NCBI GenBank assembly: GCA_017398245.1
Contig: JAFQGN010000113.1
Coordinates: forward strand, 1-7,183
Direction: 5' to 3'
DNA: 7,183 bases
DNA from: Clostridia bacterium
GTDB taxonomy: Bacteria; Bacillota_A; Clostridia; Christensenellales; Aristaeellaceae
Shown here: piece after piece, positions 97-7,183 of the stretch
Layout: the number at the start of each line of letters is the position of its first letter
Numbering within the stretch: position 1 is the first letter of the stretch
Position numbers and translations under genes: made by a program
The notes under the pieces: generated by a model
Database searches by the model: none
What the model saw: the letters and a program-made list of their open reading frames with translations, nothing else
What the model was told of the DNA's origin: nothing

Positions 97-126
97 AGTA
101 TATTGTCCGCCGCCGAAGGCTGTCAA
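97..126 (-). promoter_or_regulatory. Sigma70/SigA-type promoter for the left-edge gene
   Basis: On the minus strand TTGACA (121-126) is a perfect -35 box. It is followed after 18 bp by TATACT (97-102), which matches the -10 consensus at five of six positions. The predicted transcription start is near 90, upstream of both candidate start codons of the left-edge frame. It lies beyond the hairpin at the end of the adaptor gene, so it probably begins a new unit rather than serving the ABC operon. Confidence 0.7.
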
Positions 127-129
127 GCC

Positions 130-141
130 GTTTTGCAAAAC
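130..141. promoter_or_regulatory. Perfect 12-bp palindrome GTTTTGCAAAAC next to the -35 box; candidate operator
   Basis: The sequence GTTTTGCAAAAC is identical on both strands. The symmetry extends through flanking GC/GC with one mismatch on each side. It ends 3 bp upstream of the -35 box of the minus-strand promoter at 97-126. That is where an activator or UP-element-type contact would sit, although a repressor is equally possible. The regulator is unknown. Being AT-rich, it is unlikely to act as a terminator on its own. Confidence 0.4.
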
Positions 142-196
142 AGCACAAATCCGGACCCATCCTACAAAACATTGGACAACATACGAGCATACAGTC

Positions 197-213
197 AAAA
201 AGCCGGACGGCCT
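197..213 (-). terminator. Weak rho-independent terminator after the adaptor gene
   Basis: On the minus strand, 9 nt after the adaptor stop codon, AGGCC-GTCC-GGCTT can form a 5-bp stem (one G-U pair) with a 4-nt loop. It runs into a T-run (five T in total, two of them used in the stem). It is short for an intrinsic terminator, but it lies exactly at the end of the ABC operon and before a new promoter on the same strand. Confidence 0.45.
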
Positions 214-222
214 GTTAATCGT

Positions 223-1293
223 TTATCGGGGCAGATACACCTTCGCGCTCTGGCCAAGCATCAGCTCTTTTGCGCCGGAAACGGTGATATGCACGGTGTA
301 ATACGCCGCGTTCTGAATGGTGTTGCCCAGCGCCGAGATCTCCGTGACCGTGCCGGTCAGGATGCTCGTCTCATCGGTATCGAGCGTCACGGGCAGCTCG
401 TCGCCCACCTTGATGTTTTTGAGATAAACCTCGTCCACCTCGGCGACGATCTCCTTGCGGCCCTGCACAAACAGCCGTGCCAGCGCCTGTCCCTTCCACA
501 CCTGCTGGCCCGGGCCTACGTGCACTGCGGCGATCACGCCGTCCTCCGGCGCGCTCACGATGGGGCTCGCGCCCACGTCCGCATCCGCGCCCATCAGCGT
601 GAACAGCACATCGCCCGGCTGCACGCTCTGGCCGGCTTCCACGCACATTTCAGCGATCACGCCGCTGCCCGCCGCAGAGAGGGGATCGCGCCGCACGACG
701 GAGCCCTTGCCCACATTCTCCTTGTTGGAATAATCGTCGTCGCGATACAGAGTGAGGGTTTCTCCGGCCTCAAATTCGCCGGTCAGAATATCCACCACAT
801 AATTTGCGCCGCTGACCGAGATCACGCGGCCCGCGCCCTCGTCCTTGCCGCCGCGGGAGGATTTGAAATACAGCACCTCGCCCACGTGGATCGTCTTGTT
901 CTCCTCCTCGCTGTACGCCTGCGCGGTGGAGGCCAGAATGCGCTGGCTCTGCTCCGGTTCCATGGAAACGATCGCGCCATAGCGCGCAATGGCCGCATCC
1001 GCGCTCTCGCCCGCATCGGCGAAGACCCAAGTCACCGTGGCCTCTTCCGCAGCGGTCACTTTGGCCGTGAGCATGGAAAACAGCGCGTTTCCGCCCATCA
1101 CAACATCGCCCGCGCTTGCGTCAAACGGCTCCAGAACGCCCGAACACGGCGCGGTCAGATCGATATACTCCGCCGCCGTCACGCCGCCGTTGGCCACCGC
1201 GCGGCCGGTCAAGTCACTTTCCGTATAGGCAAAGGCCGTGCACGCGCTCAGCAGCAGCGCTGCGCACAGGATGATCGCTCCCCATTTTTTCAT
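223..1293 (-). CDS. HlyD/MacA-like adaptor (membrane fusion-type) subunit of an ABC exporter, probable lipoprotein
   Basis: A 356-residue exported adaptor, last gene of the ABC operon. The N-terminus is a classic signal peptide: MKKW, then a hydrophobic run to residue 15. It ends in a lipobox, LLSAC (Cys18), although a signal peptidase I site after AFA (22) is an alternative. Three biotinyl/lipoyl-like hairpin motifs of the SG-x(n)-GD/GQ-V type can be read near 48-74, 209-233 and 248-275, for example APEDGVIAAVHVGPGQQVWKGQ. Residues from about 280 (IVAEVDEVYLKNIKVGDELP) to 356 match the beta-barrel region of HlyD-type adaptors, including the ending LMLGQSAKVYL. The start is supported by GGAGGG 7 nt upstream, and the gap to the permease is 27 bp. 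In tripartite systems such adaptors dock on the extracytoplasmic part of the MacB-like permease and relay its mechanical movement. The substrate cannot be deduced. A long coiled-coil hairpin is not obvious, which is usual for Gram-positive versions. Confidence 0.85.
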   Translation of the reverse strand: MKKWGAIILCAALLLSACTAFAYTESDLTGRAVANGGVTAAEYIDLTAPCSGVLEPFDASAGDVVMGGNALFSMLTAKVTAAEEATVTWVFADAGESADAAIARYGAIVSMEPEQSQRILASTAQAYSEEENKTIHVGEVLYFKSSRGGKDEGAGRVISVSGANYVVDILTGEFEAGETLTLYRDDDYSNKENVGKGSVVRRDPLSAAGSGVIAEMCVEAGQSVQPGDVLFTLMGADADVGASPIVSAPEDGVIAAVHVGPGQQVWKGQALARLFVQGRKEIVAEVDEVYLKNIKVGDELPVTLDTDETSILTGTVTEISALGNTIQNAAYYTVHITVSGAKELMLGQSAKVYLPR

Positions 1294-1320
1294 TGTATTG
1301 CCCTCCTCAATCTGTTTCTG

Positions 1321-3657
1321 TCATTCCACGCTCTTGAGCGCCTCAACCATATCGATCGAGGGCACCTTGCGCGTGAGCAGCCATTCGATAAACCGGCTGA
1401 ACACGAAGGTGATCGCACAAGCGCCGAGGATCGACGGCGCTGTGATATCCGAAACGAAGATCATCGAATCGTGCTGCACCATGCCCAAAATAATATCCAC
1501 CAGCAGGATACCCGGCCAGATGCCCAGAAGGACCGCGATGATGGCCGTGATATCGTTCTCGCGCATCATCAGCGCCTTGATCTCCTTCTGGTGGTAGCCC
1601 AGCACCTTCAGCGTCGCATAATCGCGCACGCGCTCGGTAAAGTTCATCAGGCCCATGTTGTAGCAAATCACAAACGCGAGCCCCAGCGCCACAGCCGTCA
1701 GCAGTGTGAATATCGCTTTGGTCGAATCCATGAACCGGTTTGTCTGCGCGTTCTGCTGCACGGGGTATTTCAGATCGGCCACTTCATCCATTTCGGAAAG
1801 CAGATGGCTGCAGCGCGCGTCCGGCCCCTTGATGAGCAGCGCGCTCACCGCGAAATCGCCCTTGCGGCAGTCCTCCCACGCTTCCTTGGACATGTACAGG
1901 CTCTGCCCGATGTTGATCTCCACGATCCGCTCCACCTTCAGGCGCATCACTTCGTCGTCGCCCGTGAGCATCATTTCGATCTCTTCGCCCTCAGTCACGT
2001 TCATCAGATCGGCCAGCTTTGTGCTCAAAAGCACGCCGCTGCGGGGCAGCTCCAGCACCGTGTGGCCTTCGCCCAGCTGTATGCTCTGCTGGTCTTCCGT
2101 CAGCACCGTCAGCTGCGCGGCGCGGATCGCGCTCTGGCTGCGCAAACTCACGCTGCGCTCCATCACGCCGTCTACTCTCTCAGCCGAAAGCCGCGCGCGG
2201 TAGCCGTCCAGCGTGCCGGCCTGCATCCTGTCCAAATCGGTGCGCACGTCGTAATCCAGCACGCCCAAATAATAATCCTCGATAAACGAGGGGATGGATT
2301 CCTGCAGGCCGAACGAGCAGATGATGAGCATATTGCAGCAGAGCATGCCCGCCATAGCCATAAAGGTGCGGCTCTTGTTGCGCATCAAATTGCGGACAAC
2401 CATTTTTGCATTGAACCCCAGCCGGTTCCAGATCCTCGGGAAGCGCTCCAGAAGGATACGGCTGCCCGATTTCGGCGGCCTCGGCCTGAGCAGCTCCGCC
2501 GTGCATTCCTTCGCCGCCTGGTTGTACGAATGCATGCAGATATACAGGCTCAGGCCGATCGTGAGCAGCGTCGCCGCCCAGCTCAGAGGAGAGATCGGCG
2601 GATAGATCTTGCCCGGCACGCGAATATTCGTGCACACGATATCCCACAGCATGCCGGGGATGATCGCCACGCCCAGAAACAGCCCCGCCACCGAGCCGAT
2701 GGCCGAGGGGATGAGCGCGTAGGAAAGATAATGCCGGCGGATCTGCCTGTCGGTATAGCCGAGCGACTTGAGCGTGCCGATCTGCAGCCGCTCCTTTTCG
2801 ATCATGCGGCGCAGAGTCGAAACCACGATCATCGCCGCTACGGAATACGAAAGCAGCGGAAACACGAAGCTGAGCGAATGGAACAGCACCACAAAGCTGC
2901 GCGCCGAGGAGACCGCGCCGTGCGTCTTTTGCGAAATGACCGCGCTGCCCACCAGCATCTGTTCGATCTGCTCCTGCACTGCACTCGCATCCGCGCCCTC
3001 CTCCAGGCGCACCAGCAGCTCGTTCTGGGGCAAGTCGCTCACCGCGCCCCAGTTCATCAGCACGAAGCCGTAATGCTCCGGATCGGGCGAAACATCTTTA
3101 GACGTCACCACAAATTCCGGCGAAAGCGCGATGCCCTTTACAGTGAACACCTGCTCCCGCCCGTTGATCTCCAGCTTCAGCTCGTCGCCGAGGGCGATCC
3201 CCTGCGCGAGGGCGAACTGTTCTTCCACCAGCAGGCCGCGCCGGTCTCCCTCGCCAAGCGCGCTGCCCTCGCGGATAAAGGGCGTGTTCAGCGTCATTGC
3301 GCCGTCAAACGCGTTGACCGAAACGCTCACTCCGTCGCCTAACCCCGGACAATCAGCCTCGTACACCGCCTTGGGAACGACCTCTTCCACCCCGGCCAGC
3401 TGCTCCACCTGCGTGATATCCCGGTGGGAAAACGCGCTGCCCTTCACCCAGAGATCGGAAAGATTATGCTGCGCAAAATACGTTTCGAACGATTCGTTCA
3501 TCACGCGCCAGTTCGTATCCAGCCCGCCGAACACCCATGTGGCCAGCGTACACAAAAACAGCAGCGCGATAAACTGCATACCGCTTTGGCGGATATCGCG
3601 CGCAAGCTTCCGGTTCAGCGCACGCAAGCCGCGCCCGGCCCGCTTTTTTCTTACCAT
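1321..3657 (-). CDS. ABC transporter permease with two FtsX domains (MacB/LolE-like superfamily)
   Basis: A 778-residue membrane protein. A basic N-terminus is followed by a first membrane helix at about 25-45, then an extracytoplasmic MacB_PCD-like domain to about 250. The first FtsX domain (about 255-380) has helices near 257-282, 312-338 and 358-376. A linker with the typical RNLMRNKSRTF motif (422-432) leads into a helix at about 433-450, a second extracytoplasmic domain (about 452-640), and a second FtsX domain (about 645-762). The coupling segments EKERLQIGTLKSLGY (287-301) and ERVRDYATLKVLGY (675-688) are the family's hallmark ATPase-facing motifs, one in each half, so one chain carries two FtsX units. 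The start is supported by GGAGGA about 7 nt upstream, and the start overlaps the end of the ATPase gene by 7 bp. Such permeases move lipids, peptides or proteins out of the membrane, or act as mechanotransmitters. The exact substrate is unknown. Confidence 0.92.
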   Translation of the reverse strand: MVRKKRAGRGLRALNRKLARDIRQSGMQFIALLFLCTLATWVFGGLDTNWRVMNESFETYFAQHNLSDLWVKGSAFSHRDITQVEQLAGVEEVVPKAVYEADCPGLGDGVSVSVNAFDGAMTLNTPFIREGSALGEGDRRGLLVEEQFALAQGIALGDELKLEINGREQVFTVKGIALSPEFVVTSKDVSPDPEHYGFVLMNWGAVSDLPQNELLVRLEEGADASAVQEQIEQMLVGSAVISQKTHGAVSSARSFVVLFHSLSFVFPLLSYSVAAMIVVSTLRRMIEKERLQIGTLKSLGYTDRQIRRHYLSYALIPSAIGSVAGLFLGVAIIPGMLWDIVCTNIRVPGKIYPPISPLSWAATLLTIGLSLYICMHSYNQAAKECTAELLRPRPPKSGSRILLERFPRIWNRLGFNAKMVVRNLMRNKSRTFMAMAGMLCCNMLIICSFGLQESIPSFIEDYYLGVLDYDVRTDLDRMQAGTLDGYRARLSAERVDGVMERSVSLRSQSAIRAAQLTVLTEDQQSIQLGEGHTVLELPRSGVLLSTKLADLMNVTEGEEIEMMLTGDDEVMRLKVERIVEINIGQSLYMSKEAWEDCRKGDFAVSALLIKGPDARCSHLLSEMDEVADLKYPVQQNAQTNRFMDSTKAIFTLLTAVALGLAFVICYNMGLMNFTERVRDYATLKVLGYHQKEIKALMMRENDITAIIAVLLGIWPGILLVDIILGMVQHDSMIFVSDITAPSILGACAITFVFSRFIEWLLTRKVPSIDMVEALKSVE

Positions 3658-4553: not shown

Positions 4554-5573
4554 ATGGATACCCGCGCATGGTTCAAAAACAAGAACGGCATGATGGTGCA
4601 CTGGGGCCTGTATTCTCTGCTGGGCGGCGAATACATGGGCAAGCGCAGCAAATCGTACGCCGAGTGGATCCAATCCTGTTTCGCCATCCCGAACGCGGAA
4701 TACGGCAAGCTCGCCCGCGTGTTCAACCCGGTCTATTTCGATGCGGAAGAGTGGATCCGCCTGGCCAAGGAATGCGGCATGGAATATTTCGTCGTCACTT
4801 CCAAGCATCACGATGGCTTTGCCCTGTTCCGCTCCCGCGCCGACCGCTACAACATCGCCGATGCCACCCCCTACGGCCGCGATGCGCTCGTCGAAATGGC
4901 CGAAGCCTGCTATAAATACGGCCTGAAGTTCGGCGTGTACTATTCGCAGGATCTGGACTGGCACGAGGAGCACGGCGGCGGCTATCTCTCCAACCATATC
5001 GAATGCGCCGGCACCGCCTGGAACAACAATTGGGATTTCCCGGGCGTCGAGGGCAAGGATTACGATATCTGCTTCCGCAACAAGATCCTGCCGCAGGTGG
5101 AGGAGCTCATGACAAATTACGGCGAGCTCTGCCTCGTCTGGTTCGATGTGCCCATGACCCTTTCCGATGCGCATTCCCGCATCCTGTACGATACCGTGCG
5201 TCGCTATCAGCCCAATGCTCTGGTCAATTCCCGCCTGGGCAACGGCGTGTACGATTACGTATCCCTCGGCGATAACGAGATCCCCTCCGCCGCCCCCACC
5301 GGCGCGGAAGAGGGCGATTCCAATTCTATCGATGGGTTCAAAAAATCGCCCTTTGGCCTGTATGAGACCGCCGGCACCCTGAACGACAGCTGGGGCTACT
5401 GCGCGTGGGACCGCAACTGGAAATCTCCCGAGCAGCTGCTGGCCAATAAGCGCCGCCTGAATTCCTTCGGCGTGAATTATCTGCTCAACGTCGGCCCGGA
5501 CGCCCTCGGCCGCTTCCCCGCCGATGCGCAGGCCATCCTGCACGCCTATGCCGATCTGCTGGCCAAGGAATGA
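4554..5573 (+). CDS. GH29-type alpha-L-fucosidase, short cytoplasmic form
   Basis: A 339-residue enzyme expected to remove alpha-linked L-fucose from glycans with retention. Family GH29 signatures appear in order: MMVHWGLYS (13-21), YAEW (35-38), FDAEEWIRLAKECGMEYFVVTSKHHDGFALF (starting at 62), where KHHDGF at 84-89 lines the active site, GVYYS (127-131), LVWFD (194-198) with Asp198 at the nucleophile position, YETAGTLNDSWGY (270-282) and NYLLNVGPDALGRFP (308-322). Glu271 is a candidate acid/base, but this residue varies across the family, so that call is tentative. No signal peptide or membrane helix is visible, so it should act on imported oligosaccharides. At 339 residues it covers only the catalytic barrel. 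The C-terminal beta-sandwich common in GH29 enzymes of about 450 residues or more is missing. The start has AGGAGG at 8 nt. It is the first gene of the plus-strand block, and no fucose transporter or catabolic gene is in view. Confidence 0.88.
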   Translation: MDTRAWFKNKNGMMVHWGLYSLLGGEYMGKRSKSYAEWIQSCFAIPNAEYGKLARVFNPVYFDAEEWIRLAKECGMEYFVVTSKHHDGFALFRSRADRYNIADATPYGRDALVEMAEACYKYGLKFGVYYSQDLDWHEEHGGGYLSNHIECAGTAWNNNWDFPGVEGKDYDICFRNKILPQVEELMTNYGELCLVWFDVPMTLSDAHSRILYDTVRRYQPNALVNSRLGNGVYDYVSLGDNEIPSAAPTGAEEGDSNSIDGFKKSPFGLYETAGTLNDSWGYCAWDRNWKSPEQLLANKRRLNSFGVNYLLNVGPDALGRFPADAQAILHAYADLLAKE

Positions 5574-5625
5574 TCGCCGGTCCGCTCCGTACCCGAATCC
5601 GCCGTGCTAAAGGAGTGCGCATCGC

Positions 5626-5889
5626 ATGAAAGTTCTACTCACCGTCCTCGAAAGCCGCTGCCGCAGCGGATACCATAAGGCGGGCGATACCTTCCTCGTC
5701 GAAGATCTCTGCCCGCCCCTGTGCCACGAGCTTTGGCACGCGGCCTACCCCTATGTCTTCGCGCTGCAAAACGGCGCCGCGCTCGATTCGGGCGAGACAA
5801 AGGCCCGCTCCTGCACCGTGAAATGCCCGGACGGTGCGCGCGTCGTTCTGCGCATCGAAACCGTATCCGAAGGGAGCGAGGGTGCATGA
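5626..5889 (+). CDS. TIGR04076-family small Cys-rich protein of unknown function
   Basis: An 87-residue protein recognised by the family pattern: MKVLLTVLESRCRSGYHKAGDTFLVEDLCPPLCHELWHAAYPYVFAL and onward. It contains the conserved CPPLCHELW core (29-37) and a C-terminal CPDGARVV-L-IE strand (67-78). Cysteines are at 12, 29, 33, 63 and 67, with His17, His34 and His38, which could bind metal or take part in redox chemistry; this is inference, as the family has no established function known to me. The start at 5626 is chosen because AAAGGAG lies 10 nt upstream and the family begins with MKV. The gap to the fucosidase is 52 bp with no terminator. Its stop TGA overlaps the ATG of the next ORF (ATGA at 5886-5889). 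The C-terminal tail SEGSEGA is encoded by purine-rich DNA that also provides the ribosome binding site for that next ORF. Confidence 0.85.
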   Translation: MKVLLTVLESRCRSGYHKAGDTFLVEDLCPPLCHELWHAAYPYVFALQNGAALDSGETKARSCTVKCPDGARVVLRIETVSEGSEGA

Positions 5890-5981
5890 AAACAAACCCT
5901 GTCTGCTTAGTGATATACCCGGACAGCGTGCATGTGTTGCTGTGCTTTGAGACAATCTGCGAAGGGGTTGAAGGCGCATGA
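5886..5981 (+). CDS. 31-codon ORF resembling a duplicated C-terminal tail of the preceding TIGR04076 protein
   Basis: The frame starts at ATG 5886 inside the stop of the TIGR04076 gene and ends with a TGA that overlaps the next gene's ATG (ATGA 5978-5981). The product begins MKTNPVCLVIYPDSVHVLL and ends CFETICEGVEGA. Its residues 12-31 align with residues 68-87 of the preceding protein at 11 of 20 positions (P, D, V, L, E, T, E, G, E, G, A). Just before that, Cys7 and Val9 match Cys63 and Val65. There is no room for the CPPLCHELW core, so it cannot be a complete family member. The ribosome binding site is GGGAG/GAGGG in the preceding tail. It may be a real micro-protein, a translational-coupling leader for the membrane protein, or the leftover of a tandem gene copy. 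Expression is not proven. Confidence 0.5.
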   Translation: MKTNPVCLVIYPDSVHVLLCFETICEGVEGA

Positions 5982-6343
5982 ACCAAAGCCCACTCAGAAA
6001 ATTTTGCGCTGCGCACCCGGCCGTGCTCTGCCATGCGCTCGTGTTCGGCTTTGCGCCGCTCGTTCATCGCGCGCTGATCGCCCTTGCAAGCCTGCTTTGG
6101 GCCGAACAGCCGCAGTACTTCGCCTCCGTCGAATCGGTCCTCCGCTATCTTCTCGCGCCTGTATGGCTGTATCTGCTCATCCGCTCAGTCAACAGTGCGC
6201 TCGCCCTGCCCTGCCGAGAAAGCACGCGCAAAACTCTGTTCATCTATCGCATCGTGCTCATCGTATTGCTCCTGAGCATGCTCAGCTTCCTCGCTATCAC
6301 GCTCATGCAATCTCTGCTCGCGCCCCTTCTGCCCATCCGCTGA
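5978..6343 (+). CDS. Small three-helix membrane protein of unknown function
   Basis: A 121-residue integral membrane protein that I do not recognise. Hydrophobic segments lie near 14-40 (containing AVLCHALVFGFAPLVH), 53-73 (VLRYLLAPVWLYLLIRSV) and 87-118 (LFIYRIVLIVLLLSMLSFLA and onward). A basic N-terminus (PLRKFC) and basic loops (RESTRK) help set orientation. No catalytic motif is seen. The ATG overlaps the stop of the 31-codon ORF (ATGA), with the purine-rich GAAGGGG and GAAGG just upstream serving as ribosome binding site, so its translation is probably coupled to the two small genes before it. It is followed after 18 bp by the metallophosphoesterase gene. A partner role with one of the neighbouring soluble proteins is possible but unproven. 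Confidence 0.75.
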   Translation: MNQSPLRKFCAAHPAVLCHALVFGFAPLVHRALIALASLLWAEQPQYFASVESVLRYLLAPVWLYLLIRSVNSALALPCRESTRKTLFIYRIVLIVLLLSMLSFLAITLMQSLLAPLLPIR

Positions 6344-6361: not shown

Positions 6362-7183
6362 ATGCAACTGACCAACCACACCGTCCATATCGGCCTGGAA
6401 CGGCCGCTCAAGGTTCTGCACGTGTCCGATACCCACATCGCCTATGCCGACGAGCGCGACGACGAGCGTAAGCGCGCGCTGGCCGCCAGCCGCCAAATCT
6501 CCTTCGGCAACAAGGGCGACAGCGACCTGAACACCTTCCTCAGCCAGATCTCCTACGCCAACGAGCACTGCGATCTGCTCGTCCACACCGGCGATCTGTG
6601 CGATTTCGTCTCCCACCTCAATCTGGAAAAGGCGCGCGCGGCCCTCGATACCGCTCAGAACGCCTTCATGATCGCCGGAAACCACGAATTCAGCCAATAT
6701 GTGGGCGAGGCGTGGGAAGACACGGCCTACAAGATGACCGGATATCAGCAGGTGCGCAAAGGGCTGGGGTTCGATCTGCTCTTCCGTTCGCAAATCGTCG
6801 GCGGCGTGAACTTTGTCGGCGTCGATAACGGCTACTACAACACCGAGCCGTGGCAGCTCGAACGCCTCAAGATGGAGGCCGCGAAGGGCCTGCCCATCGT
6901 GCTGTGCATGCACACGCCCATCTACGAGCCCGCGCTGTACGATTTTACCATGCAGCGGCTGGACAACCTCTGCTCTTATCTCATGGGCTGCCGCGAGGAG
7001 CTCCTGCTGCCCTATTCGGAGTACCGCGCCTATCAGCAGCGGCCCACGCCGGACACCATGCGCTTTGTCGATTATGTCCAGCACCAGCCGCTTATCAAGG
7101 TCGTGCTCGCCGGGCACCTGCACGTGCCCTTCGTCTCCACTCTGCCCGGCGGGGCTCTGCAGTTCGTCGCCGGCGCGGGCTAT
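6362..7183 (+). CDS. Calcineurin-like metallophosphoesterase, cut at the right edge
   Basis: 274 codons are visible and the frame is still open at the last base. Motifs of the dimetal phosphoesterase superfamily occur in order: DTH (Asp23, His25), GD (Asp78), GNHE (Asn107, His108), CMHTP (His184) and GHLH (His252, His254). The full set of metal ligands is therefore present and the enzyme should be active on a phosphomonoester or phosphodiester, with the substrate unknown. Nothing at the N-terminus looks like a signal peptide (MQLTNHTVHIGLERPLKVLHVSD), so it is cytoplasmic. AAGGAGG lies 7 nt before the start. The long insert between DTH and GD (about 50 residues) and the segment 196-240 between the two last His motifs probably cover the active site. 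It is the last visible gene of the plus-strand operon. Cyclic-nucleotide, nucleotide or protein phosphatase activity cannot be told apart here. Confidence 0.88.
   Translation, partial: MQLTNHTVHIGLERPLKVLHVSDTHIAYADERDDERKRALAASRQISFGNKGDSDLNTFLSQISYANEHCDLLVHTGDLCDFVSHLNLEKARAALDTAQNAFMIAGNHEFSQYVGEAWEDTAYKMTGYQQVRKGLGFDLLFRSQIVGGVNFVGVDNGYYNTEPWQLERLKMEAAKGLPIVLCMHTPIYEPALYDFTMQRLDNLCSYLMGCREELLLPYSEYRAYQQRPTPDTMRFVDYVQHQPLIKVVLAGHLHVPFVSTLPGGALQFVAGAGY

Follow-up and report, generated by a model that had tools for sequence, protein, structure and literature searches.

A tandemly duplicated gene end with ATGA overlaps on both sides as a candidate ribosome relay in a Clostridia bacterium

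ATGA-coupled genes and the locus

Gene pairs coupled by termination-reinitiation at an ATGA, as described in PMC6728339 and PMC10666635, are close counterparts of the locus analyzed here, a 31-codon mini-ORF with a 4-nt stop/start overlap on each side. For two E. coli pairs reported in PMC10666635, a short stretch at the 3' end of the first gene was enough for coupling. In contrast to such pairs, the coupled element here is a duplicated gene end that forms a separate frame between two genes. Mycobacterial interspersed repetitive units (MIRUs), as portrayed in PMC12548453, resemble the locus in that a short ORF lies at the start codon with a spacing of -4 nt and the added DNA likely does little harm. 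A short ORF at -4 nt to the next gene is indeed present in our sequence, but it is a local copy of the neighboring gene's end, and the likeness considered here is one of layout. Whereas MIRUs are dispersed, the pair of segments described below is the only one in the window to reach its repeat score at offsets of 20-2999. Short upstream ORFs that deliver ribosomes downstream, in the account given in PMC12548453, share the mechanism that we propose for the mini-ORF. They differ in context: a longer gene precedes the mini-ORF in an operon-like row, and the mini-ORF still shows that it arose by duplication. A member of the TIGR04076 family is the source of the mini-ORF's tail, yet the mini-ORF itself has no match to the family model. 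A small literature search listed one paper that mentions TIGR04076 and none on junction duplications that make coupled ORFs.

The window, meaning the whole stretch of DNA analyzed, is 7,183 nt long, and all genes discussed in this paragraph lie on its forward strand. An alpha-L-fucosidase-like gene (Pfam PF01120) occupies 4554-5573 and is followed at 5626-5889 by a complete TIGR04076 family gene of 87 aa, whose TGA is shared with the next start as ATGA. Its protein matches NCBIfam TIGR04076 with an E-value of 2.1e-15 and 57 bits, above the curated cut-off of 33 bits, which places it within the family, and it has 982 homologs at E 0.001. The first ATGA (5886-5889) opens the mini-ORF, which runs from ATG to TGA at 5886-5981. 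The second ATGA (5978-5981) closes the mini-ORF and opens a gene for a 121-aa hydrophobic (membrane) protein at 5978-6343, so that both ends of the mini-ORF carry the 4-nt overlap typical of ATGA-coupled genes. The membrane protein belongs to an orphan family with 5 homologs among approximately 5.8 billion proteins, and at E 0.1 it falls into none of the Pfam or NCBIfam families. A calcineurin-like phosphoesterase gene (Pfam PF00149) begins at 6362 and is open at the end of the window. Rfam gave no matches in the window at gathering scores.

Two further open frames were observed. At 5570-5629, a 19-codon frame begins in an overlap with the fucosidase stop and closes with the ATGA of the TIGR04076 start, giving a second ATGA-mini-ATGA layout; this one lacks a repeat at the corresponding spacing (score 7) and may be due to chance. 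On the forward strand, a 1079-codon frame is open at 103-3342 opposite HlyD-like and permease genes, and it is most likely a by-product of high-GC coding sequence.

An old tandem duplication at the gene junction

The last 63 nt of the TIGR04076 gene (5827-5889) and of the mini-ORF (5919-5981) share 42 of 63 bases, their translations share 11 of 20 residues, and both end in GCATGA, in agreement with the coordinates and counts of the original prediction. No other ungapped 63-base match on the forward strand of the window exceeds 29 bases for the first tail or 28 for the other. At an offset of 92, the maximal ungapped segment spans 5811-5899 with 59/89 identical bases and a score of 29. This is the top score for offsets of 20-2999 in the window, where the runner-up is 20. 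When 5626-6343 was shuffled and scanned at offsets of 20-399, the maximum was 17 in 200 Markov shuffles and 16 in 200 codon shuffles, with 0/400 reaching 29. The duplicated block thus comprises unit 1 at 5811-5889, a gene end with its ATGA, and unit 2 at 5903-5981, which has a lower GC content; the units are identical at 53/79 bases, or approximately 0.43 substitutions per site by Jukes-Cantor over this 79-base core. Similarity is highest in the last 21 bases (16/21) and continues through the preceding part (37/58).

As controls, we collected 44 sites where a frame of at least 150 open codons meets a frame of at least 100 codons by ATGA. These ends match the two tails at no more than 27 and 29 of 63 bases, with means of 20.6 and 20.5 (n=44). 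When ATGA ends from different loci were compared pairwise, 1 of 923 pairs reached at least 42, namely L055/L056 at 51, which is probably one gene seen in two genomes. Tandem Repeats Finder (score 30) and a second repeat finder (length 30) did not detect the repeat at those settings. Since the score at offset 92 exceeds that of the other offsets and all shuffles, and unrelated ATGA ends reach at most 29/63, the repeat is, for practical purposes certainly, an old tandem duplication, with adjacent head-to-tail copies more alike than chance allows, rather than convergence on a ribosome-binding site. The tandem duplication originally proposed is therefore supported by tail identity, the offset scan, and the shuffles. 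It was also said that the proposal would fall if the tails were no more similar than unrelated ATGA-coupled ends, and in that comparison they stand at 42/63, above all 44 control ends.

The full extent of the duplicated unit is less clear. The first mini-ORF codons after the ATGA (5890-5902) resemble either the membrane-gene start or the part of TIGR04076 upstream of the block. In an ungapped comparison at offset 92, the membrane-gene start matches at 9/16 bases, a level reached at 0/19 other ATGA sites in the window. In a gapped alignment, the TIGR04076 sequence upstream of 5811 fits 5890-5902 about equally well, with a net loss of 3 nt. Shuffles reach these alignment scores at frequencies of 0.24 for the membrane start and 0.06 for TIGR04076, and either score is reached by approximately 0.03 of window positions. 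The unit either spans the junction into the membrane gene or ends at the ATGA, and the conclusion is the same both ways. The mini-ORF may be a chimera of both genes, with the 9/16 bases speaking for it and the equal gapped fit against.

Relay, relic, or micro-protein

We propose, with a probability of roughly 0.6, that the mini-ORF is a duplicated gene end acting as a ribosome relay and that its peptide would be mainly a by-product. A block of approximately 92 bases at the junction of the TIGR04076 and membrane-protein genes, including the gene end and the ATGA overlap, was duplicated in tandem. Both flanking genes stayed unbroken, with TIGR04076 ending at the first ATGA and the membrane gene beginning at the second. 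The copy lies in frame with the first ATGA, and a ribosome ending TIGR04076 could restart immediately, translate 31 codons, terminate at the second ATGA, and restart on the membrane-protein gene. Coupling between the two genes would in this way be maintained by the relay despite the inserted DNA.

Of the three frames, that of the mini-ORF alone is open between the two ATGA sites, and the others contain internal stops. If the mini-ORF were untranslated, the gap from the TIGR04076 stop to the membrane-gene start would be 88 nt. In the experiments presented in PMC10666635, coupling was nearly lost at gaps of approximately 20 nt in six gene pairs from E. coli and Haloferax, and in two E. coli pairs the final 15 nt of the preceding gene were enough for coupling; in one of the latter, de novo initiation amounted to 10-30% and coupling spanned a gap of 15 nt. 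By those measurements, made in other organisms, 88 nt is too far for termination-reinitiation (PMC10666635). Together, the open frame, the ATGA overlaps, the 88-nt gap, and these coupling distances make a relay the proposed reading for this locus. Pairing with an anti-SD string gave -8.6 and -7.9 kcal/mol for the two purine-rich tails, similar to -8.3 for the TIGR04076 start. Counting against a relay, the membrane gene has its own SD-like stretch and could initiate alone.

The phase of the copies follows from the layout. At an ATGA overlap, the next frame lies one base back, and a copy is read in the parent frame only if the spacing leaves a remainder of 2 on division by 3, as 92 does. As a control on the layout, we scanned 150 loci (933 kb) plus the window for an open frame of at least 70 codons, an ATGA, 18-60 codons, a second ATGA, and another frame of at least 70 codons. 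The scan returned 25 sites of open frames, which are putative genes, with two in the window and 23 elsewhere; five of the 23 look like duplicate listings of one site. A period of 2 modulo 3 occurs in 25/25 layouts as a consequence of the arrangement, and it adds no extra evidence. Among the 25, only the site at 5886 has a repeat at its own spacing (29 versus 8 or less elsewhere). Since such layouts exist without any repeat, the layout alone proves little.

The next most probable explanation, though clearly behind the relay, is that the duplication is real and the mini-ORF is unneeded, with the membrane gene using its own ribosome-binding site and the frame open by chance. Several properties of the copy are consistent with this. 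GC content is 0.50 in 5890-5981 compared to 0.64 in 5798-5889. Across the 92-base units, 21 differences have G or C in the parent where the copy has A or T, and 8 show the reverse; for the 79-base core these counts are 15 and 6 (P 0.08). Split by codon position, the identities are 19, 19, and 14 over 26 codons, stop included, and 13/25 residues are identical between parent and copy. In simulations, a neutral copy reaches 13/25 with P 0.15 when all change falls in the copy, 0.88 when 70% does, and in nearly all runs when half does. The mini-ORF has stayed open across the approximately 0.43 substitutions per site between the copies. The open frame and its stop survived neutrally in 23, 37, and 50% of those same runs, so an open frame alone is no proof of selection and may have survived by chance. 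The mini-ORF corresponds to predicted protein P0126 (31 residues, two contigs), and a protein search recovered only the window's own copy and no second mini-ORF. Gene callers often skip frames this short, and because of this the negative search is weak. With its lower GC, lack of a relative, and identity within neutral expectation, the peptide looks drifted, and the evidence leans against selection on the peptide itself; this drift also fits a relay whose peptide is a by-product. Against a mere relic, both ATGA overlaps and the purine-rich tails are kept, as coupling would need, and the last 21 bases are, by raw count, more alike than the part before them.

A functional micro-protein is improbable. 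In that case the 31-mer would fold as a beta hairpin and would pair with the parent's C-terminal hairpin, cap it, or take its place. The copied part corresponds to parent residues 63-87, and in the parent model it holds the last two predicted strands, 62-66 and 73-80, which corrects the earlier statement that the 31-mer keeps only the C-terminal strand. Modeled alone from its single sequence, the 31-mer has predicted strands at 6-11, 14-21, and 24-27, with a mean pLDDT of 82 and a pTM of 0.39. However, the copy has Tyr in place of Cys67, which is invariant in a 30-row alignment, and His in place of Arg72, which hardly varies in that alignment. Residue identity is not above neutral, the protein search returned zero homologs, and the mini-ORF matches 0 families in Pfam and NCBIfam, TIGR04076 included, at E 0.1. 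For the parent, a fold search with the model gave 197 matches at E up to 10 but none at E 0.001 (best 0.34), and no solved structure was found by sequence at E 1. An extension of the micro-protein idea, which we consider slightly less probable still, is a new selected 31-codon gene whose beta-hairpin product docks on the TIGR04076 parent while its translation also meters the membrane protein. If true, a gene would have been born here through the copying of a coupled gene end together with its start, ribosome-binding site, and stop.

Very unlikely as well is that the mini-ORF is what remains of a second, once complete TIGR04076 gene after loss of the middle part. Its first bases, ATGAAA, are those of the TIGR04076 start and its tail matches the TIGR04076 end, but the 14 bases after the ATG match the TIGR04076 start at only 4, comparable to fucosidase (5) and phosphoesterase (4). 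The similarity block (89) also nearly equals the spacing (92) in length, as expected from a single short tandem duplication, and it does not look like what an entire second gene would leave behind. The idea that two unrelated ATGA-coupled ends converged on a purine-rich ribosome-binding site, which the original prediction had allowed could account for part of the similarity, is refuted, since although the last 21 bases are the most alike, the 37/58 match remains without them and neither the control ends nor any of the 400 shuffles come near.

Of the three roles originally left side by side, namely a micro-protein, a relic paralog, and a coupling leader, the analysis favors a relic working as a coupling relay, and the underlying observations of a tandem duplication with ATGA overlaps at both ends hold. 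Overall, a ribosome relay is most likely, a plain relic comes next, and a functional micro-protein is unlikely.

Relatives, timing, and implications

Relatives of the two flanking genes differ greatly in number. A membrane-gene profile found 42 pattern stretches in genome contigs and 73 in viral contigs, with 0 relatives in either set. The TIGR04076 profile gave 306 stretches and 224 relatives in genome contigs, and 5 stretches and 0 relatives in viral contigs. In the best 80 of the 224 TIGR04076 loci, tblastn detected neither the mini-ORF nor the membrane gene at E below 1, and at E 1e-5 the loci lacked matches to the fucosidase, phosphodiesterase, HlyD-like, and permease genes. Overlapping genome groups of 297, 5, and 395 genomes each gave 0 matches to the membrane gene; no known carrier genome is among them, and for this reason these negatives show little. 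Weak matches to the membrane gene occurred in 1 of 8 genomes (E 1e-3) and 1 of 394 (E 7e-4), both with internal stops. The locus behind the former, L081, is 32% identical to the membrane protein over 66 residues (E 0.018). TIGR04076 itself was matched in 36 of 308 genomes from the family of G002 (best 73%) and in 8 of 9 genomes from the genus of G001 (best 77%). Phosphodiesterase matches were found in 4/43, 19/200, and 46/146 genomes, with best identities of 47, 52, and 55%, which indicates that the window's own genus lies outside the genomes searched.

The nearest protein relative, P0001, is 93% identical and ends in VCEENEGA, where the parent has VSEGSEGA and the copy ICEGVEGA. The copy shares the Cys with P0001, and shares the Gly and, just before this stretch, a Thr with the parent. 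The Cys common to the copy and P0001 hints that the parent changed after the duplication, but it does not fix the age of the duplication relative to the P0001 split.

An ATGA at the gene end recurs across the family. Among the TIGR04076 genes examined, 20/97 end in ATGA, so the family is repeatedly found overlapping a following frame. In eight of these, all from other genomes, an open frame of more than 100 codons follows (L143, L023, L048, L053, L059, L063, L065, and L060). In other loci, the TIGR04076 frame runs into a long C-terminal part (L020, L026, L052, L112, L114, and L117), and these are possible domain fusions. The C-terminal part in L052 contains an MGGDEF stretch, which we take to be a diguanylate cyclase signature.

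The locus preserves a clear fossil of one route by which a small ORF arises while its neighbors stay unbroken, the duplication of a gene end together with its ATGA overlap. For any duplication length equal to 2 modulo 3, the copy keeps the reading frame of the parent and is coupled on either side. By this reasoning, operons could take up short insertions, and duplications of this kind are predicted to survive mainly at remainder-2 lengths. Although drawn from the sequence of a single locus, this case offers a testable rule for the origin of unannotated coupled mini-ORFs.
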